Shown: in pieces, positions 3,121 through 63,500 of the stretch
How positions within the stretch are numbered: the first letter of the stretch is position 1
How the letters are laid out: each line of letters starts with the position of its first letter
NCBI RefSeq assembly: GCF_963678975.1
Contig: NC_089274.1
Location: 4,018,001-4,082,000 of the forward strand
Source of the DNA: Dysidea avara
Taxonomy: Eukaryota; Porifera; Demospongiae; Dictyoceratida; Dysideidae
DNA length: 64,000 nucleotides
Direction of reading: 5' to 3'
Program-made: the position numbers and the translations under genes
Notes under the pieces: generated by a model
Seen by the model: only the letters and a program-made list of their open reading frames with translations
Databases searched by the model: none
What the model was told of the DNA's origin: nothing

Positions 3121-6100
3121 ATGTTGCGACGGGTGCTTAGAAGATTGGCCAAGTGGCTACCACGCTTCCCCGGTATGATTTTACAATTAAACAAGTTGAT
3201 GTTGTGCTACTTCTAAAAACCAGGCGCCATGCAGCTAGCTAACTCATCTGGAGTAACTATAGACAGTATATGAATTAACCAACTATGTATTACTACTTTA
3301 CAATATGGTAGTTTGGGTTGTGCAATAATATAATTAGCTATTTCTCGTAATTCATGAAATATTTGTAATTCATTCAATTACGTTGCTATGCACTGCTAAG
3401 GAAGCGTTTGTTAAATAAACCGCTTTTACCAACATATTACGCACAAAACTATCTTCTAAACTGTTTTATAGTGTGACTAACGTGTTTTTTCCCACAAATT
3501 CTCTCGACAAAGCCTCAAAGCTGCTCTTCATTTTCGTTCGCGTACGTAAGGGATGCGCCCCCTTTCAACTCGAAGCGATAGGCTATTCCTGGCAGTGTAC
3601 GAGGCCTGCACCGTTGTTTTTCAGTTGCTAAATGCCTGAAAACCTCAAGGGGAAGGTAGTCTGAGGAAAGTCACCGCACCCGTATTTCAGTCCGCCGAAA
3701 AGAAACCACCTCAGAGCAAAGTTCACCTGTGCAGAAGTTTAATACAGACTTCATTTCACTTTTACTTCTTACGTAAAAGCTGCTTTCACCGTTATTAAAC
3801 GATTTTGCTCACGTGGGTGCGTACGGACAAACATAGGTAGATAGGTATCGCGGATTGCACATCCGTGGTCACCAGTGTCTATGGTGTCACGTGAAAATGG
3901 GCCAATGAGAACAAAATTTGAATGGAGGTCCTCACATTTGATTGGCTATTTGGTCAAATCCCCAAAAAATTTATGACAACGGATGCGCAATCCACGATAC
4001 ATAGGTAGATAGGTACACACACACACACTTTTACGGAAACAATTACAGTAAACCAGGCGCACGCCCACAGCCGGCCTTCGGCCGGCTGTGGGCGTGCGCC
4101 TGGTTTAAAAACGAGTGTTTAGCTGCTATAGCTAGCTTGATCACTGTTGCTATTAAACCGTACGCATCTCTCAGTATAACTACATGTAAACACTAGTTGT
4201 ACTTAGGTAGTCAGTTTATATTGTGTTTAAGTGTTATACTTTCTTGTTTTAGTTAAGCGGAAGCGTTCCAACAAGGATGATTGGATAGTCGATGCTGATG
4301 ACATCATTTTCATCGCATCATATGAAACCATTGAAGGTAGCTATAGCTACGTAGATATATAGAGTAGTTGTGAGTTAGGTCCACTGTAACTATCAGGGGC
4401 GGATCTAGGATTTATAAAAGGGAGGGGGGCTAACTCAATGTACTAATCTCTTGGGTATAGGGGTGTGAAGCAGCATGCTGGAACTAGGGGGGTCTGGGGG
4501 CATGCCCCCCCCAGGAAAATTTTGAAAAATAGATGCTAAAATACTGCAATTTGGAGACATTCCCATATAAAATTCATACCTGTAGATATTTTATATACTG
4601 CCTTTAGATTATAGGTGTGGCTCTCTGAAGCATTTTGCTAATGGAAAAGTTTAGGTAGGTACAGACAACCAAGTACATGATGTACCCCTCTCACAATTGC
4701 ACAACACTGAATAGGTGCATGTTAGAATAAGAATGTTGAAAGTGGAAAATTTTGAAATTTGAACAATACAAGATTGAATCTGAGAGCAAATTAAGTATTG
4801 CCATACATATTAACTACACAAGTAGATGAATGAAGCCCTTTAAACAGATCAATGCACTTCATTGTATGTATAGGTGCAGGCAGATTTAGAAAAATTCCAT
4901 AACAGAACCAACTACGCGTTTCTAGTGAATGTTCTATTAGAGTAGTTAGCTGACTGCTCTATTAGAGTATCTCGATCTTGTACACCTCCAATGCTGATGT
5001 GGGTCCTTGTTGCATAAACTTTAGCATAAATCCACTGATAATACCTTGGAAAGATGTTTATAAGGTGGTTTTATGAGTATTTGTATTATTAGTGATCATA
5101 TAATTATGCTAAGACAAAATTTCATTATAATACTCAGTATATTGATCAAGTAAAGCCTAAATATGAAGGGGGGGCTTCAGCCCCCAAAGCCCCCCCCCCC
5201 CCCCCCCCCCCCTGGATCCGCCCCTGACTATGTGAAATGAGAGCTACTAGTGAACGTTGTATTAGAGTAATTTAAATAACTGTACTGGTCCATGGCACAG
5301 TACAACTTTACCTGTACAACTAGCTAACTAAACTCTATATATTTAGTACACCCTAAAGTAAAATAATAAATAAATAAATAAATATGGTTTATGGATCAAT
5401 TTAGCTTGAGTACTCCATACACATTGCTTTAGCAAGTTAGTTGTAACATCAAAAATTTTGCTTTCATGTTTGATACTGCAACATTCCCTCTGTTATTGTT
5501 TCCTTGAGCAAAAAAATTGTTTGAATAATATTACATTCAGTTCTACAGTTTACTCAGCTGTATAATGGGTGTACTGGTGTGACCTGGTGTCAATTTCATT
5601 ATAAGCATTCCGGATTACACTAAAGACACATTTAGGCCCCTAGTCAATATTGCCAAGGCACCACATCAAGCATTGTGATATTTGTTTCACAGTGGTGACT
5701 CCAGGGGGTTTCTGAGGTTTCCAGAATCTGGTAAAGTGTATTCAAGCATGCAGTTAAAATATATTTTGCATTGATTTGCAAAGGCACAAAACATTCAGAT
5801 CAAGATACTCTAATAGAGCAGTCAATCACTCTAATAAAGCAGTCACAGTATTCGGAGTAGTGTAGGCAAGCTATGTAGCTATAAATAAGGATATATTAAT
5901 ACATAGTTAGTTGATGGCAGTTATTCTCAGCAGATAGTTACCTTTTTTATTTTGGTCTTCACCAGAAGTCTAGCTATGTTCCTGATCAGAAACCAGTCAT
6001 CAAAAATTCTGGAGCTGCCTATGTTTCAGGTCAATGTTTTATGTGGGAAAGTGAAAAACTTATACAAGTATAATTAGAAGCAATACTAAGTACTATAGGT

Positions 6101-9100
6101 ATAGTGGATCCTTGAACTTCAGTTATCCAAACACCTTGAATATTGTTCAGATACGTGAACTTGTTTGGATAAATGAAGCCCATTGATTCAAATATAGACC
6201 TCTGTTCAATTACTCTAATAGAACAGTCATTTATTCTAATAGAACACACACTAATAACAAAATACTCTAATCAAACAGTCAGTCTTAGTGTTTGGCTTTT
6301 GTCTAACTCTAGGAACAAAGGTGTTCGGATAACTGAGGATCCACTATACTACATTAAATGGTGTTTTACATCTCATGTGTTATTTGCAGTTGATGAGCCT
6401 GATGATCATTTAATGGTACAGACCAGGTTTACTGTTGGAGACTATGATGATGAACCAAAGACCAGATCTACAGTAGGCTCTACAGTAGGAGACAGTGTTG
6501 ATGAACCAGAGGCCAGTTTTACTTTGGAATCTGTGGTGGTAGAGACTGCGTCTACTGTGGAAGATGAACCTGTGGTGGTAGTAAAGAGTCTAGAGACCAC
6601 ACCTATGCTGGGTGACAATGTTGATGAACCAGAGACCAGATCTACTTCAAAACCTGTGGCGGTAGAGACCGTGTCTACTGTGGAAGATGTGGTAGAGAGT
6701 CTAGAGACCACACCTATGTTGGGTGACAATGTTGATGAACCAGAAACCAGTTCTACTTCAAAACCTGTGGTGGTAGAGACCATGTCTACTGTGGAAGATG
6801 AACCTGTGGTGGTAGAGAGTATAGAGACCACACCTATGTTGGGTGACAATGTTGATGAACCAGAGACCAGTTCTACTTCAGAACCTGTGGTGGTAGAGAC
6901 TGTGTCTACTGTGCCTGTGATGGTAAAGAGTCTAGAGACCACACTTATGTTGGGTGACAATGTTGATTCATGGTCAGTGGCTGCATACACATCATTTGGC
7001 CGTACTTATACTTAAAAGGTTATTGCTTGGGCCTTACCAACCTCTTTCAGTCAATTTGCAATACAATGGTTTTTCATTGTAATCCTCTTGATAAATTCAT
7101 TAGCAAATGCAGTAAAATAATGGAACGTTTTATTGTGTCTTTCTTGCCATATTACCAACCTGCAGCTGAGTTTCAAATAGGTATCTATTGTCTAGCAGGA
7201 CCCAAATATATCTTGTGCACATTGTACTGATATATACATACAATACAATACATCTGTAAGTACCTTTTGCGTACATACATAATACTTGCTAATAATGGCA
7301 ATGTAAAAATACTTCATACATACATGTAGCAATGAAGAGCTCTCTACCACGTCACCACAAGAACTGGAGGTTAATGATGGACCTCTGGAGGAGGTATAGA
7401 AACACACACCACACATACTGTTAGTATACGATAATTACCATAATTTATAACAAGTTGTATTCAAGGTCAAAACTTAATTTCCCTATAATTATTTTGATAT
7501 TGTGAATTGATATACCTAACCAGCTAATCTCCTGTTTAGTGTAAATTATTAAATTTGTGGATCATGTCACTAAAGTTATACTCTAGGAGATTAATCTGGG
7601 TGGGTTCTTTAGATATGCGGTGTGAGAGTATACAAAGCACACCTATTTGCATGCTGGAATCTGGGCATGCGCCCCCCAGGAAAGTAGTTGAATTTGGTGA
7701 CATTTCAGTCGCTAAAATTTTTAGGCTGGACTTTTGCTACTAAAATGTTAGACTTTTGTACTAGTGAATTTGTGGACCTTTTCACTAAAATTGTGGGACC
7801 CCTTCCCTATGCCTATACAGGCCTGTAATGACTGGAAATAGTTGTAATTCATACAGCATTCCCCAGCACCATTGAAAGTATTGTGTATTAGTGTCACAAT
7901 TAGTCAGCTGAGGCTATACAGCTGCTGTTAATTTGTGTCCATTCATCTGTGATGGGATCAGGTGGTATATGTTACTGTATAACATGTATGTACATGTTAC
8001 TAGCTACATTTGTGAGCATTGCAAATATTTACAGAGTTGTACATCAACAGAAGAGAATGGTTTCAATGTTAATACAACCATTGTATCAATTTCAAACAAC
8101 ATATTCTCAATGAAAAGCAATTCTACTATCTCTGAGATAGACATTTCTCCACCTGCTACACCATCTACTACAACTATTAATAGTGAACACTTTGTGGACA
8201 ACAGGGATAGTGGTATTGTAGAGGACAACATGGAGGATGATACAACAATGTTGAATTCAAGAGGAGAAAGTGTAGAGGTACATATTTTAGTGTATTATAG
8301 TTGTGAGGTATTATTGTATACAACACTTGTAGGAATGTCAATATGATTTGAAAGAATTCATGACAATGGTGAGGTTGCATTCTATACATTTTCAATCTGA
8401 AACAATTTCAACTATACAGTGCACAGTACACCCTCACTTTCAATGATCCAAATAGTTATAGTGACTGTTTGATAAGTGTATTCCACAAACATCTGTGTGT
8501 TAGGGGATGGTAGAACCCTCAATATTCAAAAGGTTCTGTTGTAACGGTTTCAACCTGACCACTTTTTGGATCAAGTAAAGCAGTCATGTTACCTTCTTTA
8601 TTGGATTCATGCACTATACATGTACTGTGGTATGCCAAAAGGCACCTGCTAGGCAGAAGTGACATTGAACTGTGAAAAATTCAACTTTAGCCAATATTGA
8701 TTTATGTTTGTCTGAAGGCATTATTAGCAAGTCAGTCAGTCAGGCAGTAGAAAATTCCATTGAATAATATTTTGTAGCAATCTATTGGAAGTCGTACTGT
8801 GGAATTTGTTGTACATAATCAATACTGCCATGACACCAGGAAGGTATTGTGAAGCTGGTTTTTGGTTGATATTTTTGGTCAGAAAAATCCACACCTTTGT
8901 GATCCCTAGTACAAGACTTATATGGTTTGATTGTTCACAGTATACGAGGAGACAAAGTGGAAGATCTTACGTCACACGAGTGGCTAAATCATTTGATGAT
9001 GAAAGAATTGTGACCATCTACTTGTCAAACATATACAAACAAAGAAGAGAAAATGCTGCCATGGTCCCAACAAGAAAGAAACTTGGGAAAATTGATAAAG

Positions 9101-10080: not shown

Positions 10081-10112
10081 TCCCTTGTGTATATAAATGG
10101 TAAGTTTCGCTT

Positions 10113-10720
10113 TCATTCAGTGGTATCTGTATCATCTTCTTCATGGATTGAGGTGTCTGAGTTTGTGCAGCCTGTTCCCTTGCAGTTGCCACAAACAGAA
10201 GAGCATTTCACCTTGTATTTCTTGCAAGTGCATCTCATGCTGCTGCAGTCAGTGTGGCAGTTACATCTAATCATTTTCAACAGCTTATCAGGAGCAGGTG
10301 ATAGATCAGTTAGCACTTGCAGGCATCAGTTTTCCATCATAGTCTTTCTACCCCCATGCAGTTGGCTGCATTTCACTGGCATCACCTTTCCACTCTTGTG
10401 TTTGGAATTATACATGGAAACTGTGATATTTAGCAGCAGCTGAAGTAGGTGGCAAAGTTTGTGGAAGAACAACTGTAGTGTTTTTAGCTACCTATTCACA
10501 AAAACGCTTGTATTGGAGAGAGTTTAATCCTTCCTTTGGACTTCCACTGTATAAATCCACTAGTGCTTGCTCTCCTGCAGCCACGATGTCATTTGGTGTA
10601 GATGCTACTGCACTGAACACTTTGGCCTGCATTTGAAAGTAATTACTGGATTTTACCTTTCCCAATGTCATACAGCTGTGGTGTTGTGTCACATCCAACT
10701 ATTCCAGTTGTTGGTACCCA
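10113..10720 (-). pseudogene. GCDTT/CXC-like cysteine-rich ORF, decayed
   Basis: Read on the minus strand, this carries in order GCDTTPQLYDIGKG (around 10715-10680), AAGEQALVDLYSGS, a LPPTSAAAKYHS segment, and a cysteine cluster beginning IRCNCHTDCSSMRCTCKK and ending CKGTGCTNSD (10250-10140). This order is known from a multi-copy family of animal proteins whose genes behave like repeats; the Cys cluster resembles a tesmin/TSO1 CXC zinc-binding fold. In-frame stops near 10400 and 10345 and one frame change make this copy dead. Its upstream edge abuts the F-box fragment at about 10720. Whether the family is a transposon or a domesticated gene is not settled by the sequence. Confidence 0.7.
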
Positions 10721-10724
10721 TCAC

Positions 10725-11310
10725 AACTGGAATAGTAGCTTCTCTACCAAAGTCTAACTGAAATTCTGGTAGGACTGAAAACAAATTTAATGGAGCTTTC
10801 TGACTGCCATAAAGCCTAAAATGGCTGGTGTGACCAGCTGGTCATTTGGAGTTTGAATTAACCCAATATTCCCAGATCGCAATTGTGCCATAATATACAT
10901 TATCATCATATGAAGTAACAAGGTTCAAATTCTGTAACATCCAAAAGTGCACCAAAGATTTAGTTAATCCTGTGTGTATCGTTGGTATGTCAATCCTGAT
11001 TGTAAGTTCTTTCAAGTTAAGACCAACTTTTCCAAATAACTGTTTAACATCTTTGTACCACTGAATATCCAACTTCTGTAGATGTCCCATGTGTAGTAGA
11101 ATCATCCCTAGCTTCTTGTGGCCCAACATGGTTGTTAGTTCTATCACATTGCTACAATGCTCTAACATTTTCACTATTTTGATGGTACCATGTGATGGGG
11201 AAAGCACAGTCGTTTCATGTGTTGTCCATACACCTTCAACACGCTATTCACACACCCTTCATCACCAGTGTGGTAATAAGGCCAAACAAACTCCCTCCAC
11301 TATGCCTGAG
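10725..11310 (-). pseudogene. F-box/LRR family fragment (reverse copy)
   Basis: The minus strand matches the F-box/LRR genes at 32438 and 42388 from just after the F-box motif. Block WREFVWPYYHTGDEGCVN lies around 11300-11245, followed by the HCSNVIEL segment, then HLQKLDIQW and LKELTIRIDIP (open 10842-11207). F-box start and C-terminal half are missing and the frame is broken near 11205. It is the only copy on the minus strand and lies more than 15 kb from the cluster, so it was probably carried here by segmental duplication or inversion. Confidence 0.85.
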
Positions 11311-11659: not shown

Positions 11660-12415
11660 CACACGAAGCATGCTGAAACTAGGGGGGTCTGGGGGCATAC
11701 CCCCCCAGGGAAATTTTTTGAAAATAGATACTAAAAGGCCGAATTTAGTGGTAATTTAGTCAATAAAAATAACAATTTTTTAAGTACGCTCAAGACTAGC
11801 TATATGGATAACATCTGGGAAAATATCTCTACATGCTACTGTAATTATACTGTCTGTATATGCATGTGTCTATACATAATGTATTGGAATGTCACAGTGA
11901 ATAAGAATGGGAAAGATCGAATGCTCTGTCATGATCAATAGGGGTAGTGGAGCAGAACAAAATAGTTTTTAAACAATGAAATTTACACATTACATGGAGT
12001 TGAAGCATGCATGGATGCTATTCATGGGCTCTGCATATGGGGGTGGGGCTTGCCTACCAAAATTTTAATGATAGCTCTAATTTAGATAATCTCAATATAT
12101 GTTGTGTAAATATATTAAGCAGTTATATACAGCTTTTAAAGGAAAATGCAATTGTGACTGTTCTATTAGAGTGATTGTTCTATTTGAGTGGTCGACTGCT
12201 CTATTAGAGTATCTCGGTCTTGCATTGCATTGCAAGCACTGAATGAGCTAGTTACTCGGAATACTTAATTTATAGCTTCTTATTAGTGGTATTTAGTAAA
12301 CTGTAGCTAATGGACTTTTGCTACTGAAAATTTGGACTTGTACACTAAAACTATGGACCTTTTTCCAAGAGGGCGGTTCTTCAGAACCCCCCAATCTCCC
12401 CCTGGCTACGGGCCT
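11660..12415. repeat. Diverged family A-like element
   Basis: GCATGCTGAAACTAGGGGGG, then GGCATACCCCCCCAGG and AAAATAGATACTAAAA, match the interior of the 4393 and 62062 elements (AACTAGGGGGGTCTGGGGG). A triplet of CTCTATTAGAG-type motifs sits at 12160-12215. The right end (12380-12415, CCCCTGGCTACGGGCCTG) differs from family A, so this may be a sister family or a composite. Confidence 0.65.
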
Positions 12416-12419
12416 GCTT

Positions 12420-12965: not shown

Positions 12966-13135
12966 CAGGGCCACCCAGAGAAATTAAGGGTCCCAGGGCA
13001 AAGAGTTAAAGTGGGGCCCCAGGGGCAAGGAGGGTTCCACTCTCTGAATCACAACTTCACCCAAGCTGCAAGTCGAAGACCAAAAAAAACAACAAAAAAG
13101 GTCATTATGCCCCCTCCCCCCCGGGGGTGGCCCTG
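12966..13135. repeat. Family C hAT-like MITE, short copy
   Basis: Ends CAGGGCCACCC (12966) and GGGTGGCCCTG (13125-13135) are inverted. The flanks CATAAACT and TATAAACT match at 7 of 8 bases, the size of a hAT target duplication. Interior matches the right part of 13932-14286 (GAGAAATTAAGGG-CC and GGGCAAAGAGTTAAAGTGGG, in the opposite orientation). Confidence 0.85.
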
Positions 13136-13539: not shown

Positions 13540-16500
13540 TCATGCAATCAAGTGCTGGTTGCACAGGAAGTTGGTTTGTACTTGTCTCTCCAGTTCAGCT
13601 AGTTTCTTCACAGATGGTGCCAGTTGTTCCACATGATCCATGTAAGCTGCTCCTATATGGACAGACAATTAACACACACTCTGTAGCCATGTCCTGGAAG
13701 TTTGACAGAGGAAAACTTTGAATAATGAGCAGTATTTTGTGGCAGTACATTACAGCTATTGTTGATCTATAAAACTCATCCACCAAACTTATTTTCATAA
13801 CTCAGGGAAGTGTCCACAGTGGTTGGGACCAGCCACCATTCAAATAAAACAGCCACCACTACCACTCACCAACCCACCTCTTATTTACACAAGTTAAGGT
13901 CCCACACATTTTATCATACAGCTCTTGACTCCAGGGCCGCCCACAGGGGGGGGCAACTGGGGCATTTTGCCCCGGGCCCCAGCCTGAAAGGGGCCCCAGG
14001 AGGCCCCATGAAGGCCCCCCTGAATACCTGTTTAAAAGATTGATATACTCTAATAGAGCAGTCAGATCTAAATACTCTAATAGAGCAGTCACAGTATTCT
14101 TCAGAGGAGCAGTGTAGCAAGCTTATAGATAAGGAGATATGGTTGGTGATGGGTAGTTATTGTCATTGCCAGCAGGTTGTGACCTTTTTTTTTTTTTTTT
14201 TTTTTTGGTCTTCACCTTACAACTTGGGTCAAGGGCCCCACTTTAACTCTTTGCCCTGGGCCCCTTAATTTCTCTGGGCGGCCCTGCTTGACTCAACCAT
14301 GTTTCTTGTAGCCACCACTATTCTAAACCTGGACGCAGCCCTGATAACTGATTTGTCAATGTTTTCCTGCCAAACTTTATTGCAGAAAAAAGATGAGGCG
14401 TGTTTATATAACAGAAATTAAGGCCATCTTATGTTTCATGGATCTAGTAGCGACTTGGCAAGTCGAAAAAAAGGTCAGCTGTACCTGACTGTTTTGTTGA
14501 GTATATATGACTGCTCTATTAGAGCATTTCAACCTTTACATTGATGCTGGAGCTCATAAGTCATCTTTGCTTCTAAACCATGATTGATTGTATAATCTAC
14601 ATTCATTTTAACACTCTGACTAAATGATCACATGACTAAATGATCACATGATTTAAATCAATTTTTTGGGTTTGCCATAAAACTACCACATTCATGAAAC
14701 AAAAGTCATGGCCTAAGATATCCAGTGAGTCATGGCCTAAGATATCCAGTGAGCTCACAATCATTACTGTGGTCCATGGATCACTATACTATTACTTCAG
14801 ATGTGTGGCATACCTTTATTTGATCTCTTTTGGCCATACACAACTTTCCCATCAAAGTCATCAGTCTCCACCTTCAAACTGCGATCTGTTTCAGGAATAG
14901 ATACTCCAAGGTGTTCCTCAATTTCTGCCAAATACTATAGAGAATAGCATACCAAATTATGTAATAATGCAGTGTGGGGTAGTTCAGCTATAACAAATAT
15001 CAAGGTTTTCAAAAGACACATTAATAAGTTGATAGAGGTTTATCCAACAGTCATGATAAGACAGCTGCTGTACAGTAGGCAGTATAAAACTTTGGTGAAT
15101 CTGCAAATAATCTGAATGGCGAAAAAAAGAAACTTCGGCAATTCACTGTGTTTTGTCACATGTCACTATTCATTGCATATATGTAACATATGGTGGCTGG
15201 AAATATACTTTAGTGCAAAGCAATTAAAGGCTAATTTGCCAAGTTTTATACTGCCAAAGGTTTCTACTCAGTTCATTCAGTACAGGCTAGTAAGGATGAC
15301 GCATGTAGATTGACATTTTCCTGCTAAAATTCTCACTTGAAATTTACTTGGCTGCATTGGGTAGTATAATAGTAATTAAAACACCAATACAACTCATGAT
15401 CATTTTGATAAAGTTAACAAATCTTGCTTTATGTTTAATGGGACAATGACATACATAAACAGTAGTAAGCTACCGTGATAAAATTGTCTTCATTATTGAC
15501 ACTTATTGGATGCAATTTTTCTACACATTATTGCTCTTTGTGTATACCAAAATGTATGGAAAACAACATCAATTAAAATTTTTACAACTGATCTGACCTG
15601 TTTTTCATCATACCAGATGGCACATCCTCCACGTTCTTTTAAGTTGGTGTTGTTGCAGCTCTTGCCTCGACTGGGGCAGGAGTGGTACCACACCTTCTCC
15701 TTCACTGTGGATACCAGTGAGATGGCTAGTCCCATACGATCTGCTCTCCCCACTCGACCAATACGATGAATGTAGTTTTGTTTATCATCAGGCATTGTGA
15801 CATTGACAACTAAAAAGAGGTACTTCATGAGCATTGTTACACAAAGAGCATGCCCGAACAAATAAGGAAAGGACACACACACTTACTCACACACCACAAA
15901 CACAACACACACACCACATGCACACACGCACGCACGCACAAACACAACACACACACACACACACCATAAGGAATTCCATGTACATCTATACCCCTGGCAG
16001 CTACATCTGTACATATCAAGAAACGGACTTCTCCATCCTTGAATGCCTGCAAGTTAGCTTTACGTTCTTGTGGTCTACGGTCTCCATGAAGGCACACACA
16101 TGAGTACTTGTTCACCATAGAACTGTGACCTGCACCATATACACAACGTTAACCAGAAAATTCCATTACACTTATAGGTAGTAGGGGAAAACTTCTCACT
16201 ACCATTCCTTCACACATCCCTAGCCATTAAAGAATAGCATTATTATTATTATTATGATTTTACTGCTGAAAACAGTTGTACAAACATGAATACAAAATTA
16301 AGTGAAGGTACAGCAGCTGGTATACTGATAAGAACCATCAGTACTCAGAATTACATAACAGGAGAACAACTGAATTACAAGCATAAAACTAATTACTTAA
16401 TTAATTAAACAAAGGGGTAATTGGAGTGGAACTACACTTGTGACAGGGATGTACAACGTGATAAGTACAGTAATTATTATTGTCAAACTTTGAAGTGAAC

Positions 16501-22500: not shown

Positions 22501-23811
22501 TCACCTCTCCATAATCATCAAACTGGCTGGAGGATGATTTTTTACCAGTTCCACCATATCCAAACCCATGCTCATCTTTACCTGTAGTAGAGAGGGGTAT
22601 TATATGTGCCATGAAGTATGAGAGGAATTACCTAGCTCATGAGTGGCCTTTCTTGTAGACCAACCAATCCTGCACAATCCTTCATCAGTGACAGTAGCTT
22701 CGTAGTATACCTTCCCTGAGTATGTAGTGGGCATATAATATAAAAATTATGTAGTGTTCATTTGTTCATTCCTCCGTGTGTGTTTGCGCGTGTGCATGTG
22801 TGTGTGTATGCGTGTGTGTGTGTGTGATGCATGCATAGCATTGTATACAACTGCATAAAAACAATGACTAATGTTAAATTCACCTGCGCCAACCCCATGA
22901 GAGGAACGACAGCCCTCCCAAGCTCGTTGTTCGCGACACTGACACAGCAAACCATCTGGACTAATGGCTAAAATCAAAAAACACACCACAAATGAAGGTT
23001 AAATTAATGTAGTCACAGCATACCAAAATTTTCTCCTCTGTCAAACGCACTTAGAGTACACTTCTTTGACCCAGCGGCTAATTAACAGAACACACCATAA
23101 TATTGGTCACATGTCAACTACAAGCACTTACCTGTGGTAAGAGCCCTCGGTGTTCTCCCCTCTTGCCGATCACGTAAAGTCTCGTGAACAATTTGAATAA
23201 TGGGAAGGCAAAATGCCTAAGAAACAGGATAACATACAACACTCCTACATCTAAAGATCCTCACCCCAGTTTTTCCACTGCCAGTCTCAGCAGCCTGAGA
23301 ACAAAAGTTAAGGATAATGGAAAGTTCATTAGGCCATCATTATTAAATTCCTTGTTTCCCGTCACCGCCCACATCAATTCTTAGGTAGCCGCACCAAATT
23401 TTAATTATTTGATTATAGATCACGTGAATACACTATTTCATGATGGAAGGAGACACAGAGTGACCAAGCTTTAAGGTAAATGCATTAGCTTATAAACATA
23501 TAGTAGAAGGATGGAAGTCCCTCCACTCTTGTTCCACAGGGTGCATGGGTATACAAACCTGGCAGCCTTCAAGATCAAGATACTCTAATAGAGCAGTCAG
23601 AGACTGAAATAATAAGAGTCAAGTGTATAATTAATAGTCAATAATCACCTCCCACCCACATCAATTTTTGTTCTATTGGGTGATGGGAAACAAGCAATAT
23701 AATAATGATGGCCTTATTATGCAGACAGTAATAATATGATTTATTAATGCCTTTTGGTACCACCCTGTCTTTTTGACTTTATTTTTATCCAAATTGGAAA
23801 GGGTGGCATCA

Positions 23812-27517: not shown

Positions 27518-28360
27518 GCATGTGAGAACTTAAAGTGAAGTTGCGATACGTTTCACGAAGATTGCGAAGTGTAGATGAAACACCGTCACTTTGGAGAGAG
27601 TTAGTGTGGCCTTGGCACCACACTGGTGATGTGAACAACGTGTTGAAGGTGTGTGGACAACATGTGAAACGACTATTCTTTCCTAATCATATGACATTCT
27701 CAAAACTAATGAAGATATTAGAGTATTGTAGTAATGTGATGGAACTTAGTCTACCAACAACCATGTTAGACCCTGTCCAACTAAAAAAGATTTTACTACA
27801 CATGAAACATCTACAGAAACTAGACATTCAGTGGGGTGATGATACTGAGTTACGAGAGCTATTTGGAATGGACTTAAAGGAGCTCACCATCAGAACAGAC
27901 GAGAAATCACCATCAGGGTCCTATCAACAAACTGGACCCTGGGAACCAATTGAAGATTGGATGATTAAAAAGTTTGTCCCACAAAAGTTAAACGTTATTA
28001 CTTTACACTGTGATATGTATTCATCAGAATTCTGAGATTTTGGGTTGCATCAAACTCCAAGTCACCAGCTGGTCACTTTGGCCATGTAAAGATTTGTAGA
28101 CACTGGAACACTCCATTAAATTTATTTCCTGTTCTACTGGAATTTCAGTTAGACTTTGGTCAAGGAGTGAATTCTCCATTTGTAATGGGCACCAGTGTTG
28201 GAACACATCAGGATAGTTTATTAATGATAACTGATTGTGATAATGGTGGTAGGATAGCATGTAGGGCAAAAGTGAGATGTACAGTTGCTCCTGTAGGAAT
28301 AGATAAGGATCAATTAAATCATACCATTACCAACCTTGAATGTGTGGCCGAATTTGTTAT

Positions 28361-40803: not shown

Positions 40804-42072
40804 TTTATTTCCACTATAGTGAAAGTGAAGGTATGCATGATTGTAGAATATTTTATTTTGCAGTGACTGTTCTAGCTATTAGAATATCTCGATTTTTCAT
40901 GTGAATGTGAAAAGGTGCATCTGCTCAACTTTAAACAAAGCAAATCCTGCACCGTTTTTACTGGAATATGATTTCCAGCCTGTTGTATCACAAGTTTTGC
41001 TAGCATAGCACTTATTATGATGATTATGATTGGCACGAGTCAGTCATACTAGTCTGCTCGCAGACCACCTGGGGGCGAGACTGTGAGTTAATACTACCAA
41101 TAAATATACTACTGATCGATACGAAAATGGTTCCAATTTGATAAAATAGCTACTAGACTGAGCCTCAAAGTGTTACAACGATAGAATGGTGCTAATGCTC
41201 TAATAGAGCGCACATTTTTCCTTTCGTTGAAATTGTCTAATAGAACACATCTCACTTTAATTAAGGATGGTATATCCTATGCAATCCTTAAGAGGAAGGT
41301 TACTGAAGCAGTTAAAGTGAAATAAAAGAAATTGCACATACCGCTCACAGGTGTGGCATGCATGTTGCCAGTACACACATGCTATATATGGTGATGCTTA
41401 CAGTTTTGCATGTAAGTGCATACGTATATATGTAAGCTCAAAGCATAATATATAAGTGCATGCAGATATTTTGGATAGCGTAAGTATGCATACATAGCAA
41501 AGAAGTATAACACAAAGTACAAACAAATTTATGAAGAATTTTTCACCTACTCTATTAGCTACAATGCACAGAACAAACAAATATCTGCACATACTGAGCA
41601 TGCCCTACTCACAAATGTGGTCTAAGAGTGCTGTAAAAAAATGAAGTGTGTCCGGCACACCAAAATTTCAATACACACCAATATTATGCCAATTGGTATG
41701 CATATTGTGACATAAAATTGGTGTGCAGCTATATAAGGCAGTGCTGAAAATCTTTGACCATAAGACAGTGTGGGATAAAAATTATATAGAAACAAACGAG
41801 GTACACTGAAAATTATTTTCAAGTGTGCAGCTATAATATAAAAGGATATAAACTTGAACTAATAACTGGATTTGAACAGATTGAACCTACCTCCTGCACG
41901 AATGCACACAAGTTTGGCATTCTACTGAACTGCCACTATAAACAGTTTGTGTAGTGGTTTTTAAAGGAATGTTATCTGTATTATCTATAACCTTCCTAGA
42001 GTACAACAGTGCTCACCAGATAGTGTTCACCAGTTTTTTGATCGGAGTTTTGACGGTGGTTAGCTACTGTGA

Positions 42073-42387
42073 CATGCGGGGGGTAGCCAACGCCCACGCA
42101 AGAGTCCCAATATTTAAGTATTTCAAAACGTATTTCTGTTAATAAATATTTCATGTATTTATATGTATTTATTATAATTGCATCTCCTTATCTATAAGCT
42201 TGCTACACTGCTCCTCTGAAGAATACTGTGACTGCTCTATTAGAATATTTAGATCTGACTGCTCTATTAGAGTATATCGATCTTTTAAACAGGTATTCGG
42301 GGTGCCCTCCATGGGGCCTCCTGGGGCCCCTTTCAGGCTGGGGCCCTGGGCAAAATGCCCCAGTTGCCCCCCCTGTGGGCGGCCCTG
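42073..42387. repeat. Repeat E fragment fused to truncated family C element
   Basis: 42073-42180 matches repeat E (31750-31985) in reverse. 42181-42387 matches family C (13932-14286) in reverse, with two TCTATTAGA motifs and an intact CAGGGCCGCCCA-type end at 42376-42387. The family C terminus abuts F-box coding sequence with no spacer. The family C left end is missing at the junction with repeat E. Confidence 0.85.
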
Positions 42388-44094: not shown

Positions 44095-44313
44095 CAGTAG
44101 GACCTCGATTATCCGAACAATATAAGTGACTGCTCTATTAGAGTATTTCTCCATTAGGTGAACGTTCTATTAGAGTAAGTGTATGTTCTATTAGAGTATT
44201 TGAACATAACTCTATATAAAAAATGGGCTTCATTTATCCGAACAAATTCAGTTATCTGAACACTTTTATGATTAAACTGGCACACAGGTGTTCGGATAAT
44301 GAAGGTCCTACTG
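44095..44313. repeat. Family B MITE (pogo/Tigger-like), copy 2
   Basis: Ends CAGTAGGACCTCGATTATCC and GGATAATGAAGGTCCTACTG are inverted, and a TA precedes the left end. The CAGTA-GACCT--ATTATCCG pattern is close to Tigger/pogo termini. Three TCTATTAGAGTA motifs lie inside. The right end touches the CTG tract upstream of the F-box gene at 44633. Confidence 0.88.
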
Positions 44314-44322: not shown

Positions 44323-44522
44323 GTTGCTGCTGCTGCTGCTGCTTGCTGCTGCTGCTGCTGCTTGCTGCTGCTTGCTGCTGCTGCTGCTTGCTGCTGCTGC
44401 TGCTTGCTGCTGCTGCTTGCTGCTGCTGCTGCTGCTGCTGCTTGCTGCTGCTGCTTGCTGCTGCTGCTTGCTGCTGCTTGCTGCTGCTGCTTGCTGCTTG
44501 CTGCTGCTGCTGCTGCTGCTGC
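44323..44522. repeat. CTG/CAG triplet tract, about 200 bp
   Basis: Almost pure GCT/CTG triplets interrupted by frequent GCTTGCT steps. All six frames are open through it, giving artefactual poly-Gln, poly-Ala, poly-Leu, poly-Cys or poly-Ser reading frames. It ends 111 bp before the ATG at 44633. Confidence 0.97.
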
Positions 44523-44632: not shown

Positions 44633-46514
44633 ATGGATGGACTCGATGGCAACGGAAGGGCCTTCAACACCTTACTGGCTCTTCCGACAGAATTGTTAGT
44701 TCATATAGCATTATTCTTGACTGAAGCGCGCGACAAGGCTAATTTACGATACGTTTCACGGAGGCTACGAAGTGTAAGCGAAACACCGTCTTTGTGGAAT
44801 GAATTTGTGTGGCCCTATTACCACACTGCTGATGAAGGGTGTGTGAACAACGTGTTGAAGATGTGTGGAAGTCATCTGAAACGACTATCTTTCCCACATC
44901 ATATGACATCGTCCAAGCTAACGAATATGTTAGTGTAGCAATGTGATTGAACTTAGTCTACCAACAACTAATTTATACCCTGAGCAACTAGGAAAGACTT
45001 TACCAGCTATGAAACATCTACAGAATTTGACCATTCAATGGAACACTGATATCAAACACTTATTTGAAGTAGTTGTTGGTACAAACATGCAAGAACTCAT
45101 GATTGTAGTGGCAACTAAAACAGAGCCAATTGTTCACTCAACAAAATCATGGATACATTATTGGATGGTAAAACAGTTTGTGCCACAAAAGCTAAACATT
45201 TATACTGCTTTTCAAAGTTTTTGCCGTGACTACAAAACAGCAATGTGGAATTGTTGGATATCCACAAATTCTAAATCACCAGCTCACAGCATTGGTCACC
45301 TTAAACTTTATAACAGTATGAAAGTTCCATTGAATTTTTCCCCTGTTCTACCAGCATTTCAGTTAGAGTTTGGTCAAGATGTAGATTCCCCATTTGTAAA
45401 TGCCAGCAGCATTGGAATCTTGGGATTAAACAATGACTTGTTAGAATTAACTGACTGCACTTGCAATGGTAAGATGGCATGTAAGGCCAAAGTTGAATAC
45501 AGTTGTGATGTCAAGGTAGCTAGAAATCAAGTAAACCATAGAATAAGCAATCTTGAATTTGTGACTGACTTTGACGTAATGATTGGTTGGCCATTTTGTT
45601 CTGAGCAGTTAGAACAACTAGCTGTCACATGTCTTAACCTTCAACGGCTTAACTTGTATAAAAGTATGTACTGTTTGAAAAGTTTACAAGGTTTACGTGC
45701 CATTGCCACTTTCTGCAACAATCTTCAAGGACGAAACTTGTCGGGTATACCAGTTAGTGAGGTGGAGGATCAGACACAATTGTGGGAAATATTAAGTGAT
45801 ATGAAGTTGACCCACCTAGCTATAGATTTCTGTGTATTACTGCCTTCCGCAGAGAACAAACAAAAGTTGATTGTACTATTTCAGAAGTGTACCCAACTAC
45901 AAGCATTACAGTGTGATAACTCACATTGTCTCATCTGTGATTCTAAATTTGTTGATATTAGTATTTCAGTGCTTTCTCAGTTCAAAGCTCTGATGCACTA
46001 TATAATTTTTGTTGGTTTCTATCATAGTCCCATTACTCTACAGGGCGTACTGACCTGCAAAGAGCTGAAGTATTTGAATTATACTACAGACAATTATAAT
46101 ACTGAGAAATTGTCTTCATTAACCCACAATAATTTGCAACAGATTCGACTAAAGTCAATTTCTACCGTTATTCCCAACAGTTTTATGAGTACAATATCAT
46201 CTCATGGTGGACTGGTACATGTAGTGTTGTGTGTGAGATCAGTGACCAGTGAAGGTGTTACTGTAGTTGTAAGTAACTCCCCAAATCTACTAACATTTCA
46301 TGCTATCGTTCATGTGTTTTATGACAAAAATGGTTCCAAACTGCAGCCAATGGAACTAGAAGCTAGTCTAAAACAAGAATTCTTCCATAGACAATTGTTT
46401 ATATTTGGTAGCTTCATAATAAAGTTAGGACATGTGGATCATGAATTTGAGGGATATTTTCAGGTTCAGTATAACACGGACCTGTTTTCAGTGTGGAATT
46501 TCAGTATAACGTAG
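44633..46514 (+). pseudogene. F-box/LRR copy 5, near-intact with one frameshift
   Basis: ATG 44633 opens a full F-box (LALPTELLVHIALFLTEARD, then LRYVSRRLRSVSETPSLW). At 44930-44938 the codons equivalent to MLEYCSNV have lost 5 nt and the frame ends. The rest is open in another frame from 44943 to 46514 (523 residues; LRRs include LEQLAVTCLNLQRLNLYKSM and NLSGIPVSEVEDQTQLWE). The C-terminus ends TDLFSVWNFSIT. The single lesion and otherwise complete reading frame suggest recent inactivation, a segregating null allele or an assembly error. Role would be as for the intact copy. Confidence 0.9.
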
Positions 46515-49062
46515 AACAGAGTGTATATTAGCTTGTTATATACTGTGTATATACCCTAATAATAACAATGTTATTAGGTCACATGTAAACACTGGATTTT
46601 TATTTTTTAAATATAATATTTTAACATTAATTTTCTATACAAGTTTTATAACTCTTCATTTGTATGTTTTTATCAAAAAAATAAGTTGTTAAATATCTGA
46701 TTACTACTACAGATTAAAATGCTTCCATTTACAGCTACCTAAAACATTAATACTAGTGAAAATTTTTAAGAAATGTAATTTTATAGTATAGTGCATGGAT
46801 GGGCTGTGTCTCGGCATTCTATGCTCCTCTTTTCCATATTTAGCAGGTGAGCTAATATATATCGTTACTTGTATCTTGCTGTTGAATAGATATATTTCAT
46901 CTGCATGGCACAAAAAAGTAATTGTAAGGGAATGTCAACTGGCTTAAATGCTGACAAGATAAACTCTGTCAAGACTTTAAATCCTTTCTTAGGTTTGCAT
47001 TCTCTTAAATTAGCAGCTGTAAATTCAGACCTGTAGCTATACTCCTCACCTTGTTAGCCATCAATGACAACATGCACATGATCACATTGTGTCACACATG
47101 ATCACATTGTGTCACACATACATGTACAGTAATAATAACACTACAATACATGTAAATGATAAAGGTCCAAGTATTGTAAATTAAAATTTACTAACATTCA
47201 GTTTCTTGGCCACTCCAGATATCAATTCTTTTAGTGGTCAATTACACTTTCTCTCATCGATGTGTCCTTTTTTGTAGCCTAGCTGTTTTTGCATGGATAT
47301 GTGAACTTAAGAGGGAAAATTTCATATACTGGTAGTACATAGCTAAATATTAAGTTGGGAAAATTTCTGAAAGCAGCAACCACATTTTTGGATCGCACAC
47401 TTTTAATCAAGCAGTATACACTGCAAAAGAGAATTTTAAGTAGTTATTATGGGAACTGATCATAATTTTAATTATATATGTAATTACATAACTGTGATTT
47501 AAATCCAGAATAACATTTTTGTAGATTTAGATTAGAAACCAAGCAAGAACACAGTTGTTAACAAACAATATGGCTGATGTAAAAGATGAACCCATGATCA
47601 CATTTAGTCTACCATGCGGATTCTTGTAATTAGGTTTAAAGTTACAATGTTGTATGGTGAATGTATACATGTTCCATATTTTGTAGATTTCTAACCATGA
47701 AAACTCTAAACTAACTTAGTTGGTTAGCGAACTGGTAGCTACAGGTTTAATAAAGCTGTTACATGCTTAAGCCACTATACTGAGTCCAGCCATTATTGGC
47801 ATGTTATCCTGCCATTGTCCATTGATGATACTAGTCTTACTAAACTTGATAATAACTTTTAGACACAAAAGCACATGTAACTAAGAGCACTGGAATGTAG
47901 CTATAGTTATATAATGTATAGATTGCTGCATATGTAATATAAAACAAGAGACAGCTAGTATGTTAAGCTGGTAATAATAGAACTGCTAATGGTATATACA
48001 CATCATAATTATGGATATATATTATATATAATGGATAATTTTTACATTTATTTTCACAATGAAAATTTAAGGTCAGTGCTATATCAAGACTTGATTATAT
48101 ATTATACCTCCCCCAATATACACTCTTGGCTATATTTACCCATACACCCAGTATTAATTAATTGTTCATTCAAAATAGCCAGGGCTTGTTCCAGTATAAT
48201 TGTCTGGTCTTACCATAAAGTAATGCAATATGAAATATTTGTAGACTAGGGGTCAGTGTTACTTACACTCACTGGTTACTGGATCTCATACATGTATATA
48301 CCAGTCCAGGTCCATGAGTAGGGTCAGTAAGAATCACGGATATATATATATAGTACTTGTTGCAACAAGTAGAGCAGCATATACATATTATTTTAAACAC
48401 TCCTTGCAACTGGACAGTGTGATGGCATCTGTGGTATGATAAAGATGGCCTGAGTCAAATATGCTCAAAATTTTTCCCCTTCAGTGTTTCCAATATGCTT
48501 GTAATATGCTTGTAGGTTAGCAACACTTCTACAATTTTCTTGGTACATTTTAATCAGTGAATGCCTTATATAGTTTGCTACAAAGTGACTGTTCTATTAG
48601 AGAGTATTGATCTAAGGCACTATGTACAATGCTCTATTAGAGTTTGCAGTTTTCAATGACTGCTCTATTAGGGAGTATCGAATAAAGTTTGAATTATCCA
48701 CCTAATTTTTACGAACTAACTTGTTATGGCAGCAAAAAAAAAAAGGCTCCAGCTGTTTATGTTGGACAAAAGCGTTTTGCGACATATCTGCAACTGAAAT
48801 TAACTGTATCACATAGCTAGTGGAATATTCTATTGTGACAATTGAAACATTTACTGTAGGGCGTTTTGACTATTGATATATAGTGGAACTAATGGCAGAT
48901 GTAAACAAATAATATAGTACATTAATGAAGATTTCAACACACAGGGGGTTATGGTTCAGAAGAGGGAATACCCACTGGTACAACTGCAGTGGTTGTGGGA
49001 CACTGCTGCAAAGAGAGTATAAATGTAATTAACCAGATCAAATACACAACATGTAGCAGTCT
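46515..49062. other. Intergenic, no gene seen
   Basis: AT-rich sequence between the F-box cluster and the 3' end of ACAD11. Contains a two-copy direct repeat of CACATGATCACATTGTGTCA (47076-47119) and three CTATTAG-type motifs (48585-48680). No exon with convincing splice sites. Confidence 0.6.
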
Positions 49063-51350: not shown

Positions 51351-51432
<82 letters not shown>

Positions 51433-60371: not shown

Positions 60372-60567
60372 TAGCCTTTTGTGTACCCTTGTCTTTTGAC
60401 AAAAATGGATAATCTAATCTAATCTAATTCTTGGCAATCGACAAGATGGAGTAGTCATTGTCACTAATTTGCTCTAATAGAGCGTTCATTTTTTCTCTAG
60501 GTCACATGCTGCAGTATAGGTGTGGTTACTGTTGATGATGTGTCACGTAGCAAGTTACCTCAAAGAA

Positions 60568-63500
60568 ATGTCTGACCTCCGTGAAGGCCAAGAGTTGAGG
60601 TCCAGGGAAGAGAAAAAGGTACACAAGTGTAATAAGTTCATATGTATGCAAACTGTACTCACAACTTCTTTTCGCTGAAAAATAATCGGGTACCAGTGTT
60701 TGTATCATGATGTTGGCGCTGTTTTTTTTGTTTTTTTTCAAACGATATTATTTTGCTCTCAGGGGGTGATTTACGAGCATTTGTTGCGCAGTCGTGTAGC
60801 GGTTGTGTGTTAGCTTGTCATCGCTCGCCTGTGGTCATGTTGAACAGTTGTAAACCTCCTAAATCATTGATTGCTCAAATTCTTGTGGTATTTTATATTT
60901 GTGGATTATAAGTTGGTGTGTTCTTAACAGGACAAACCTGGTGAAGGCGAGGACACTGGAAGATCCACAGCACCTCCCAAGTAAGCTGAGCTATTATTGG
61001 TGTGGAAGATTCAGTATAGGTTCTGTGTGGTGAATGAATATACCATTAGCTAGTTCATTTATATAGGGTTTAATACAGTGTTTAGCATCCAATCAACACC
61101 TTAGCACTTTATAACATAGAGGCTTTACACCAATAATAGTTGATGTACACAATGCTTGATGTGGTTTGTAGATGTATATTTTTGCTCTTTAATTTTACAA
61201 TATGTTTTACCAACAGTTCATAATACTATATAATTTTTATTATGAATTATATATTTTCTATAATACTATGAACTCTTGGTTTTACTCATAACAGGCTGCA
61301 CACATCCTTATCCATGTACTCAACTAGCTAGCAGGTGTCACGGTTTCTATGCTACTAGACACAACTAAACAGATCATAAAAAAAATTTGTTTCTGAAAGT
61401 AGTTTGTGAGATTTGGTCCAGCTGCATATATCAAACAGTACGGTAATACTGTTTAAGTAGGAGTGACACATGCCACAAAAAATGCCACCTTTAAAAATCA
61501 TTCCTAGAGACATCTCATGCGACAAAAATCACCTTTATGGAATAATATCAATCCATCTAATTAAAAACAAGAAAACACGTACAGGCAGCCAGATATAGAA
61601 TTTTTTTTAAATTCAAAGTTTCGTCTGCCTGCCAGACCACAGTTGCAAGGCTGGAGGCCAAATGAAGCAGTACACGGCCACCATTTATTCACACACAAGT
61701 GGCATGTTCCTTTTGTGTGGGTTAGTTTAGCGGACACATGGTTATGTGATCTGCTGAGCAAAAACCAGCCGTTTTTGGAAAATTCTATTTTGCTATAAAA
61801 GTGTATTGAATAAACTGGGTACCTATATGCGTGCTACATATTACATATATATCCATTCATAAATTGTAACATGTAAGGCCTGTTCTTAAGTTCTAACAAG
61901 CCATAGTGAGCACTGATAGTGTATATATTGCTCGTCATAATGATGCCAAAGTTGGTGGTTGAATCTGTATAATTATGGGGCCATCCAAAATTTTGAGGGG
62001 AAAATTTTTGGGTCTTTCATGCATTTTTGATCTAACTGCAAATTTCGAGGGGGTTCATCCCCAGGGGTGGATTTAGGAATTTACAGGGGGGGGGGGGGGG
62101 GGGTGGTAGGTACTAATCTCTTATGTGAAAGAACCAGGGCAATCTGGGGGGCATCCCCTGGGAAATTTTTGAAAATAGATGCTAAAATGCTGCAATTTAG
62201 TTTAGGTGTAGCTCTGCAGCATTTATTAATGAAAGGTTTGAGTAGGTTCAAACAACCAACATCCTCACACAATTGCACAACAACAAGTGCATATCAGAAT
62301 AATAATGTAATTGAAACTGGAATTTGAATGATACGAGATTGAATCTGAGTGGCATGTGTATAATTAAGTATTGCCATATGTAATTGACTATACAAGTATA
62401 GATGAATCAGTTATAAATGAAGGCCTTTTAAATAGATCAATTTTAGATGTAGACAGGTATGGATAAATTCCATTGCAGAGCCAACTATTGTGTAACCGCT
62501 GAATGTTCTATTAGAGTAGTTAGGTGACTGCTCTATTAGAGTATCTCAATCTTGTGTGCCTCCAATGCTGATCCCAGTGATCCAGGCCCTTGTTAGATAA
62601 CTTTTAGCACAAATCCAGTGATAATGCATTGAAAAGATGGTTATATGGTGAGTTTAATGAGTATTTTCACTATTAGTCATCTTTTTAACTATGCTATGAC
62701 AAAGGTTCATTATAATCTTCAGCATTTTGATCAAGTAAAGTCTAAAGGTGAAGAGGGGAGGGGCTTCAGCCCCCATAGCCCTTCCCTGAGATCTGCCCCT
62801 GATCCCAGAGGGATTTTTCCTTTCTTTGTCCCATTTTCTGTTTCACATTATTCTGTTAGCTAATGTAGGTTAAATATTGTTTAAGTCTCTAGTCTCTGTT
62901 TGTTAGGATAATCTGTAACACATGTTGTTCAGTGCTGGCCACTATAAAGATCTAATGATGCTACCAAGTACTAAGAATAATAGAAATGGGATCAAGTTAG
63001 AATTGTTGGTATACCACATATCACATGTTTCCTTTGGTGTACTGCAATTTATAATACTCCTCTTGAGTAGGAAAGTAAGATGATATCCAAGTTTTTTGCC
63101 ATAAGTCTTTCTTTGCCATGAACAAAGCATTAAAACGTTATGCTGTAATATTAACATATAATTATATGCTTTCTACTGTAACATTTATGCTTGCACTGCT
63201 ATGTTGGGTTTTTGCAGATCTGGTGGCAAATATGGCCCATGTTTGGTAAAGCACCTGCATCATGTTTACACCATTGTACTATTTTATTTGAGATATTCTT
63301 TATGTGTGTAGTGCTTTATTGGTGAACAAATTGCTGCTAAAGTAATCTTACAATGCATCTTGCATTTCCTCGTTCGTAGCTCAATGAAAATTTGGGCTAT
63401 AGTTTTTGGCATATGTGTCTTGCTAGATGTTTTACAGTGTGATTTCTGCTGTAGGAAGAAATGGCAAAGACGTTATCGCATCTTCAGGCTGAAAGAATCC

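Follow-up and report, generated by a model that had tools for sequence, protein, structure and literature searches.

A polar 29-bp sequence module, TGACTGYTCTATTAGAGTATCTCGATCTT, is carried in tens of thousands of copies by unrelated transposable elements of the sponge Dysidea avara. At least seven repeat families contain it, namely four hAT-like families, one pogo-like family, one Harbinger-like MITE and one tRNA-derived SINE, often in short arrays. It is also more conserved than the rest of the element in the one family studied closely, and the same picture is seen between copies of two further families. We favour, at about an even chance, the reading that the module is a cis-acting predicted protein-binding site in transposable elements that is under selection at the level of the element and has been spread by unrelated transposons. 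The coordinates below refer to the window, the whole 64-kb stretch of DNA that was analysed (Table 1).

Sequence, number and arrangement of the module

The alignment of 124 copies, selected as matches to the first 19 bp of the module, gave a sharp and polar consensus of 29 bp and no consensus in the flanks outside it. The module consists of a near-palindromic core, CTCTA-T-TAGAG, between an asymmetric left arm, TGACTG, and a right arm, TATCTCGATCTT. The 11-mer CTCTANTAGAG occurs 13 times exactly and 33 times with at most one mismatch in the window; at the latter threshold, 100 dinucleotide shuffles gave a mean of 1.71 and a largest count of 5, and none reached 33. With the 18-mer GACTGCTCTATTAGAGTA and at most five mismatches there were 54 raw matches in the window, some of which are both strands of one site, and with the 19-mer and at most four mismatches there were 42 after the removal of overlaps. 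An earlier note on this DNA had estimated about 35 copies, in agreement with the counts of 33 and 42. All 14 positions that it listed are real, each within 5 bp of a CTCTANTAGAG copy (4932, 4957, 5808, 12199, 14048, 14075, 23583, 42262, 44133, 48632, 56444, 60472, 62506 and 62531), and three of these sites (4932, 56444 and 62506) have one mismatch in the 11-mer.

The 550.8-Mb genome contains 50,229 exact copies of the 19-bp core TGACTGYTCTATTAGAGTA, against 0.02 expected by chance, and 22,288 copies of CTCTANTAGAGTATC, while the reversed-sequence controls for CTCTANTAGAGTATC and TGACTGYTCTATTAGAGTA have 2 and 0 copies. A chance origin of the motif is ruled out by the shuffles, the genome counts and the reversed controls. 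A known structured RNA is likewise ruled out by the lack of any Rfam match at the gathering threshold in the window. The same applies to a bacterial or viral origin, since TGACTGYTCTATTAGAGTA had no match in viral contigs and only three in 257 Gb of prokaryote contigs, a search space in which chance alone would give about 3.7. In the literature, nothing was found on shared internal motifs, and the exact-letter matches, among those listed, were incidental by title.

Modules often stand in same-strand arrays. Sixty-eight of 72 neighbour pairs within 120 bp of each other share orientation, and their spacings are mostly 17, 21, 23, 25, 27-28 and 31-32 bp, in a set that includes a few overlapping loci. 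The pairing and tripling of the motif had been described before with a spacing of 18-30 nt, which is slightly too narrow for the observed 17 to 31-32 bp. The continuation TCGATCTT, also described before, is present in its exact form in a minority of copies, and the one-base variants TTGATCTT and TCAATCTT are common too.

Table 1. Module sites and their host elements in the window
Feature	Position	Strand	Remark
Module	1675..1703	-	full 29-bp form
Family A element	4394..5226	+	ends CAGGGGCGGATC...GATCCGCCCCTG; 5-bp duplication ACTAT
Two tandem modules	4926..4979	+	within family A element
Two modules	5796..5845	-	diverged relative of family C group
Family B (pogo-like) copy	6106..6342	-	bounds are the outer GGATCC of each end
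Three modules	~6200-6291		family B 6-kb copy
Three-module array	12155..12221	+	
Family C relative	12966..13135	+	without module
Family C hAT-like MITE	13932..14286	-	CAGGGCCGCCC...GGGCGGCCCTG; 8-bp duplication CTTGACTC
Two modules	14036..14091	-	family C copy
Family H MITE	23332..23713	-	Harbinger-like; long inverted ends GGCCATCATTATTA...; TAA both sides
Module	23571..23599	-	family H
Palindrome variant GCTCTATTAGAGC	41197..41209	-	13 bp, perfect, centre base aside
Truncated family C copy	42182..42387	+	
Two modules	42229..42284	+	truncated family C copy
Family B pogo-like MITE	44095..44313	+	CAGTAGGACCTCGATTATCCGAAC end
Three modules	44127..44199	+	family B 44-kb copy
Family G copy, part	48446..48681	+	GGCCTGAGTCAAATATGC end
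Family G modules	48585..48678	+	M2 ~48585-48602, M3 ~48657-48678
Palindrome variant GCTCTATTAGAGC	60471..60483	-	13 bp, perfect, centre base aside
Second family A element	62062..62801	+	5-bp duplication ATCCC
Two tandem modules	62500..62553	+	second family A copy

Repeat families that carry the module

One internal module is indeed common to elements with different ends, as the earlier note had proposed for families A, B and C. Its presence in these three was confirmed, and the set of hosts is wider. The module is neither confined to one element family nor present at a chance frequency. The claim that it also occurs alone was not borne out, since both sites examined (48.6 and 23.6 kb) lie inside further repeat families, which are MITEs. 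Nine of the 24 module clusters in the window were assigned to a repeat family. When the surroundings of four copies (42.2, 48.6 and 23.6 kb in the window, and locus L039) were searched genome-wide, all four were found inside a repeat family. The genome-wide candidates numbered 2,004 for family C, 1,763 for family G, 695 for family H and 1,506 for the SINE. Families with the module have listed copies on contigs C1 to C15.

The host families with hAT-like ends (A, C, E and G) have two lengths of target-site duplication among them. In family C, which is about 350 bp long, the duplications match at 7 or 8 of 8 positions in 10 of 11 fetched copies, two of the 11 being one duplicated locus; the window copy has CTTGACTC on each side, a duplication of the 8-bp hAT type. 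Both copies of family E that were checked have 8-bp duplications identical at all eight positions, GCTATTAA around L009 and AAGTAGTG around L038. Of two family G copies, L068 has TCAACCAG on both sides and L064 matches at 5 of 8 positions. In family A no 8-bp duplication was found; its two window copies have 5-bp repeats, ACTAT and ATCCC, and the hAT-like label, which is taken from the CAGGGG ends only, is provisional. A hAT clade with a 5-bp target-site duplication is known.

Family B has TA on both sides of its copy at 6 kb in the window; its copy at 44 kb, the inverted ends of which were found by a structural scan, is flanked by TA and TT. In the one family H copy studied, that of the window, TAA flanks GGCCATC...GATGGCC and the inverted ends match at 35 of 39 positions. 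A 3-bp TWA duplication and inverted ends starting with GG define PIF/Harbinger elements, and this copy has both. Different integration machineries are indicated because the duplications differ: 8 bp in families C and E, 5 bp in A, TA in B (one of two window copies) and TAA in H. Descent from one ancestral element family is ruled out, as the families differ in their ends, duplication length and class.

The SINE has a B box (GGTTCGAAYT) and an A-box-like stretch in its tRNA-like head (two copies), and its 3' end is fixed, with 37 of 40 scored copies stopping at query positions 218-227, within 10 bp. Pol III boxes, a fixed 3' end and many copies characterize a tRNA-derived SINE. ARAGORN called no tRNA in it, and no target-site duplication was found around two SINE copies, the bounds of both being uncertain. 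The module was read in two copies, and the alignments of the others extend across it. These two copies had suggested that the module is the 3' tail of the SINE; this was ruled out by the genome search, which placed it internally, about 50 bp before the 3' end.

In 184 kb, the structural scan called 32 elements with inverted repeats. Four of them overlap modules, and two of these four are spurious, the called ends being the modules themselves. The scan missed known copies of families A, C, G and H. Most of the called elements have no module, which rules out a universal feature of MITEs.

Conservation inside the elements

Where it was measured, the module looks to be under constraint and is better conserved than the remainder of the element. 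Detailed measurement was made in one family, G, with 20 copies. Divergence was 2.0% in module M1, 1.4% in M2 and 4.8% in M3, versus 8.0% elsewhere. Shared variants were found in 0 of 39 columns of M1 and M2 versus 89 of 314 elsewhere (p = 7e-6), and in 0 of 31 versus 49 of 212 when CG/CA/TG columns were removed (p = 0.0012). M3, with shared variants in 5 of 22 columns, was no different from the rest in this respect (p = 0.81). Two of the modules form the longest variant-free runs (29 and 24 bp), and the run at the inverted end is 11 bp. The conservation of M1 was not caused by the search, because M1 is broken in the query copy. The right arm is unconstrained in this family (7.5-11% divergence), and divergence jumps from 1.8% to 7.5% when a 20-bp window is moved by 10 bp. 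Across the genome, 125 of 293 anchored family G copies have the module segment intact, versus 13 of 107 for a neighbouring segment (p = 3e-9).

Private variants, counted only in columns where query and consensus agree, were also fewer in M1 and M2 (13 of 764 cells versus 136 of 3,777, p = 0.005; M1 alone, p = 0.11). This deficit is not predicted by selection in source elements alone, unless many of these "private" variants are subfamily variants that were not sampled. In the window copy of family G, M1 (at about 48.55 kb) is broken, and the exact 11-mer at 48632 is an additional stretch, where most other fetched copies that have that part show CTCTATTGCAG or a similar sequence.

The two window copies of family A are 78% alike; they share their longest runs, of 24 and 23 bp, at the two modules, and the next run is 17 bp. 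In family E, a comparison of L009 with L027 (63% alike) places the two longest runs within modules (20 and 18 bp), and one of L009 with L038 (81% alike) places them at the ends, not in the modules. In the family B pair w44/L025 the longest shared run is outside the modules; pairs with w6 were left out, as the MAFFT alignment had one copy reversed. In a pooled comparison with flanks 85-90% alike, the modules were less alike than the flanks (0.844 versus 0.873). The C-group alignment has TGTGACTGCTYTATTAGAGT in 8 of 8 loci, which was not counted as constraint because the loci were picked by strings ending in the first bases of TGTGACTGCTYTATTAGAGT. Most C-group loci were fetched via the module, and the family E loci via one of their three modules. 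The form of the module is specific to the family, GTGAATGCTCTATTAGAGTATTTCAC in G and TGAATGTTCTATTAGAGTAGTTAG in A.

A portable binding site and its alternatives

The earlier note had offered three candidates, a micro-element that targets its own sequence, a bound site and a silencing target. Of these, the bound site is in best accord with the conservation of the module in lineages that propagate, and this conservation in active lineages argues against a pure silencing target. A dimeric or multi-finger DNA-binding protein would most likely recognise the core and its asymmetric arms. The module stands in the interior of each of the unrelated non-autonomous elements, in many cases as a short array on one strand; the lineages that kept it would have left more copies, leading to its retention in source elements, and transposition of these would have copied it to tens of thousands of places. 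The binding protein is probably one host factor that all families share, not a single transposase, and binding would help mobility or avoid silencing. The module may have passed between families by exchange among nested elements. The modules of the relatives L009 and L010 are at different places, a hint of repeated gain or rearrangement.

It is unlikely, although worth weighing, that the module hitch-hiked neutrally through nesting, recombination or template switching, and that its conservation reflects homogenisation by gene conversion among many short homologous stretches. Donor copies are very numerous (22,288 and 50,229), chimeric short elements such as HaSE2 are on record (PMC3272025), and homogenisation would give fewer private variants in modules, as seen in family G. 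However, conversion tracts would need to end within about 20 bp to produce the step in divergence in that family, and the modules keep their family forms rather than converging on one sequence. An origin as the tail or a conserved body domain of one LINE or SINE, with the copies in DNA transposons being retroposed or truncated insertions, seems to us quite improbable. The SINE with its 1,506 candidates carries the module, the arrays have a fixed polarity, and short same-strand arrays look like retroelement tails; against this, the SINE module is internal, two SINE copies of uncertain bounds had no detected flanking duplication, and inserted fragments of a retroelement are not expected to be the best-conserved part of several MITEs.

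We would give still less weight to a host regulatory or chromatin-boundary site that was seeded by transposons and is selected by the host at many positions. The lowered private variation in modules of old copies and the occurrence of module-bearing families on contigs C1 to C15 are consistent with it, but a general explanation by host selection would have to act on tens of thousands of copies, which is implausible, and in one family 168 of 293 anchored copies have lost the intact form. The self-inserting element of the earlier note, here an independent micro-element of about 29 bp that prefers its own sequence, is unsupported and very improbable. The sharp edges and the tandem arrays with variable spacing would agree with it, as would the relatives L009 and L010 (about 60% alike), in which the modules are at different places. 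However, the four copies searched all lie within repeat families, the arrays resemble tandem duplications, and no empty site was found in the local sequence set. Among 443 module-spanning local alignments there was no clean empty site, and the eight gapped at the module (labelled by eye) comprised five changes of array length in family D, two of family B against a relative and one of family E against L010.

Parallels to the proposed binding site exist, with differences. The short protein-bound motifs of hAT and pogo subterminal repeats resemble the module, for which binding is predicted, in being repeated within an element; they are tied to a single transposase and placed close to the ends, whereas the module is interior and spans superfamilies and a SINE. 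In vertebrates, transcription-factor or CTCF sites have been spread by several transposon families, so that one site is dispersed by unrelated repeats. They resemble the module, with its predicted binding, in this respect, but are usually shorter and looser, while the module is nearly fixed over up to 29 bp and conserved inside elements. Internal, non-terminal sequences affect the mobility of rice Stowaway Ost35 and of mariner (PMC3660474, PMC2642840). As described there, these enhancing sequences belong to one element or superfamily and one transposase, unlike the module, which is the same across different machineries and whose effect on mobility would be of a similar kind. A further likeness is to the central domains of SINEs (CORE, V-domain, Deu-domain, Ceph-domain and HaSE1/HaSE2), short internal sequences of distinct families under presumed constraint, argued in PMC3272025 to be important for retroposition; HaSE2 is there a SINE with a mariner-like 3' region. 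The module is likewise internal, common to distinct families and more conserved than the rest (measured in G, A and E). However, the central domains in that account are common to SINEs, and the module, 29 bp long and in arrays, is also found in the inverted-repeat DNA elements A, B, C, E, G and H. Its span of three DNA-transposon superfamilies and a SINE is unusual compared with the known analogues.

Why some non-autonomous elements explode in number and others do not is an open question. That hAT-, pogo- and Harbinger-like elements and a SINE of one genome have all kept one short site suggests a host-side requirement common to them. The families and copies with and without the module form a natural experiment, and the 29-bp module provides a handle for finding the protein that links unrelated transposons. 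Our results suggest that the site aids the spread of mobile elements and was for this reason taken up by different ones. More tentatively, the module itself might be the selfish unit of selection, moving between element classes, recruiting one host factor, boosting the element that captures it and spreading on several machineries. If this is true, such a selfish cis-module would be a passenger of parasites that pays its own fare.

Sequence, abundance and arrangement of the module

The earlier note had suggested testing the CTCTA-T-TAGAG motif for enrichment over shuffled sequence: CTCTANTAGAG, with at most one mismatch allowed, has 33 matches in the 64-kb window versus 1.7 in dinucleotide shuffles. 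Alignment of 124 non-identical copies, taken from the window and the fetched loci L001-L044, gave a sharp module, TGACTGYTCTATTAGAGTATCTCGATCTT, and no consensus outside it. Because the hits were chosen on positions 0 to 18, these are near-fixed. In the right arm, on which there was no selection, T is found at +21 in 91% of the copies and the sequence is otherwise looser (TATCTCGATCTT). The CpG of this arm is frequently TG or CA, as would be expected in a methylated genome. Neighbouring modules (≤120 bp apart) share their orientation in 68 of 72 pairs and are mostly spaced by 17, 21, 23, 25, 27-28 or 31-32 bp.

Throughout the genome assembly (550.8 Mb, 108 contigs), CTCTANTAGAGTATC has 22,288 matches against 2 for the reversed control and about 7 expected from base composition, and the 19-mer TGACTGYTCTATTAGAGTA has 50,229 against 0 and 0.02, respectively. 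In prokaryote contigs this 19-mer has 3 matches, no more than chance would give (about 3.7), and in viral contigs it has none. Twelve arbitrary 10-kb regions, on contigs C1-C12, contain 42 modules (≤4 mismatches) in 120 kb, with none in three of the regions; extrapolation suggests some 190,000 modules genome-wide. When non-simple 11-mers in 184 kb were ranked by distinct 500-bp bins, the most widely spread were pieces of the module. Behind the module, the units of family D rank among the non-simple words with the widest dispersal in this sample. In this family, a unit of roughly 30 bp (e.g. GTAGCTGAACTCTCTACAAGGTGACTTCTTCTAGCTGATCTCTCTACAGGGTGAC, which is two units) is repeated in long arrays, and the arrays seen carry one to three modules at one end.

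Element families carrying the module

That a single module is common to elements with different ends was borne out for families A, B, C, E, G and H and a tRNA-derived SINE (Table). Of the window's 24 clusters of modules, nine were assigned: two each to families A, B and C, and one each to a C-group relative, G and H. The terms hAT-like, pogo-like and Harbinger-like were assigned from ends and duplications, following the usual criteria for these families. Family C has 2,004 candidates genome-wide, with 96-100% identity to the query in the 40 scored. Its duplications match at 7 or 8 of 8 positions in 10 of 11 fetched copies, two of which (L054 and L055) are one duplicated locus with flanks in common. 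Duplications of 8 bp are present in both family E copies checked, and TA flanks one window copy of family B on both sides and the other on a single side. The module letters come from one copy for family H and from two for the SINE; the remaining listed alignments span the module.

Families E (L009, L038) and G (L063-L083) have ATTATGC/GCATAAT subterminal repeats in common despite their different ends, and possibly belong to one transposase group. In the C-group, GAAGACC and GGT(C/A)A enclose a poly-A run, variable in length, that persists in most of eight aligned copies, while the rest of the element has diverged. The window also contains five related gene-like copies, recognized by DNA similarity and open frames. 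The open frame of the 32.4-kb copy includes an F-box, and a truncated family C copy directly adjoins the 42.4-kb copy. The 215-codon open frame resembles the end of a Ty3-type integrase; a Pfam search with it gave no match at E 0.001.

Module-bearing families and other features (positions are those of the window; L numbers are fetched loci)
Feature	Position	Description
Family A		740-833 bp in window; CAGGGG ends, 5-bp duplications
Family B		pogo-like MITE; subterminal TTATCCGAAC repeats
Family C		hAT-like MITE, ~350 bp; CAGGGCCGCCC ends
C-group	e.g. 13932-14286; L028, L033, L035	poly-A run
Family C relative	12966-13135	170 bp, without module
Family D	L007, L034, L037, L039:5700-8200, L044:4650-6700, L058	arrays
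Family E		TAGGGACCCGCCGATTATGC ends; modules in both arms
Family G	includes 48.6-kb copies	TAGGCCTGAGTCAAATATGC end, ATTATGC repeats, three modules; 1,763 candidates
Family H	includes 23.6-kb copy	GGCCATCATTATTA ends, TAA duplication; 695 candidates
tRNA-derived SINE		module within body; 1,506 candidates
Gene-like copies	10717-11300 (-), 27526-28373, 32408-34372, 42423-43407, 44794-46514	
Tandem array	2188-2486	~15 copies of 20-bp unit CATATGACTCATAATACCCC, 98% matches
CTG/CAG array	44325-44522	198 bp; starts 12 bp past family B copy end
Open frame	304-951 (+)	215 codons

Sequence constraint on the modules

Conservation was analyzed copy by copy in family G only, using 20 copies with the query (48.6-kb) copy left out. 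Pairs of them differ by 14.4% on average, which is close to a star phylogeny. Divergence from the consensus is 8.0% outside the modules, and 2.0%, 1.4% and 4.8% in the three modules M1, M2 and M3. A variant shared between copies indicates that it was propagated by a source element. None of the 39 columns of M1 and M2 carries one, compared with 89 of the 314 columns elsewhere (p 7e-6); when CG/CA/TG columns are left out, the counts are 0/31 and 49/212 (p 0.0012). The longest and second-longest variant-free runs in the element fall on M1 and M2. M3, with shared variants in 5 of 22 columns, does not differ from the rest of the element. Each of the 13 variants that M1 and M2 do contain is private to a single copy, and private variants are also rarer there (13/764 versus 136/3,777, p 0.005), a deficit that selection on sources alone does not explain. 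The 20 copies were among the top-scoring search hits, which may bias M2 and M3; since M1 is broken in the query, its conservation cannot come from this bias.

A count-only check compared 15-bp segments of family G lying between 10-bp anchors on each side. The module core is exact in 125 of 293 anchored copies genome-wide and one neighbouring non-module segment in 13 of 107 (Fisher p 3e-9), with anchor sets that are imperfectly matched because those of the module overlap its outer arms. The first 46 module copies listed, all on contig C1, are exact in 27 cases, above the whole-genome rate.

In family A, the 62-kb copy was paired with three others (75-78% alike). The longest shared run lies in a module each time, and so does the second-longest in two pairings; in the pairing with L022, the second-longest length, 16, is tied between a module and two other runs. 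Likewise, the longest shared runs of the family E copies L009 and L027 are in modules. For L009 and L038, which are 81% alike, the two longest runs correspond to the element ends instead of the modules. Pooled pairwise comparison of the other families is given little weight, since the loci had mostly been retrieved through the module itself. In it, module identity exceeds flank identity where the latter is below 85%, falls short of it at 85-90% (0.844 versus 0.873), and is higher or roughly the same above 90%.

A possible host factor

The module might be the site of one transposase. That alone is unlikely to account for everything, since the carriers of the module integrate by different machineries: their duplications are 5 bp, 8 bp, TA or TAA, and one carrier is a SINE. 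A host protein common to all families would be the simplest common cause. Such a protein might open chromatin, aid transposition or transcription, or shield the elements from silencing. The near-palindromic 11-bp core suggests binding by a dimer, and the arms suggest further protein contacts. The families may have acquired the module by nesting and recombination among short elements. PMC3660474 and PMC2642840 describe mobility-enhancing interiors within one superfamily, whereas the present module occurs in several element classes. Conserved interiors across SINE families, one with a mariner-like 3' region, are on record in PMC3272025. The family C relative that lacks the module is a natural control for its importance.
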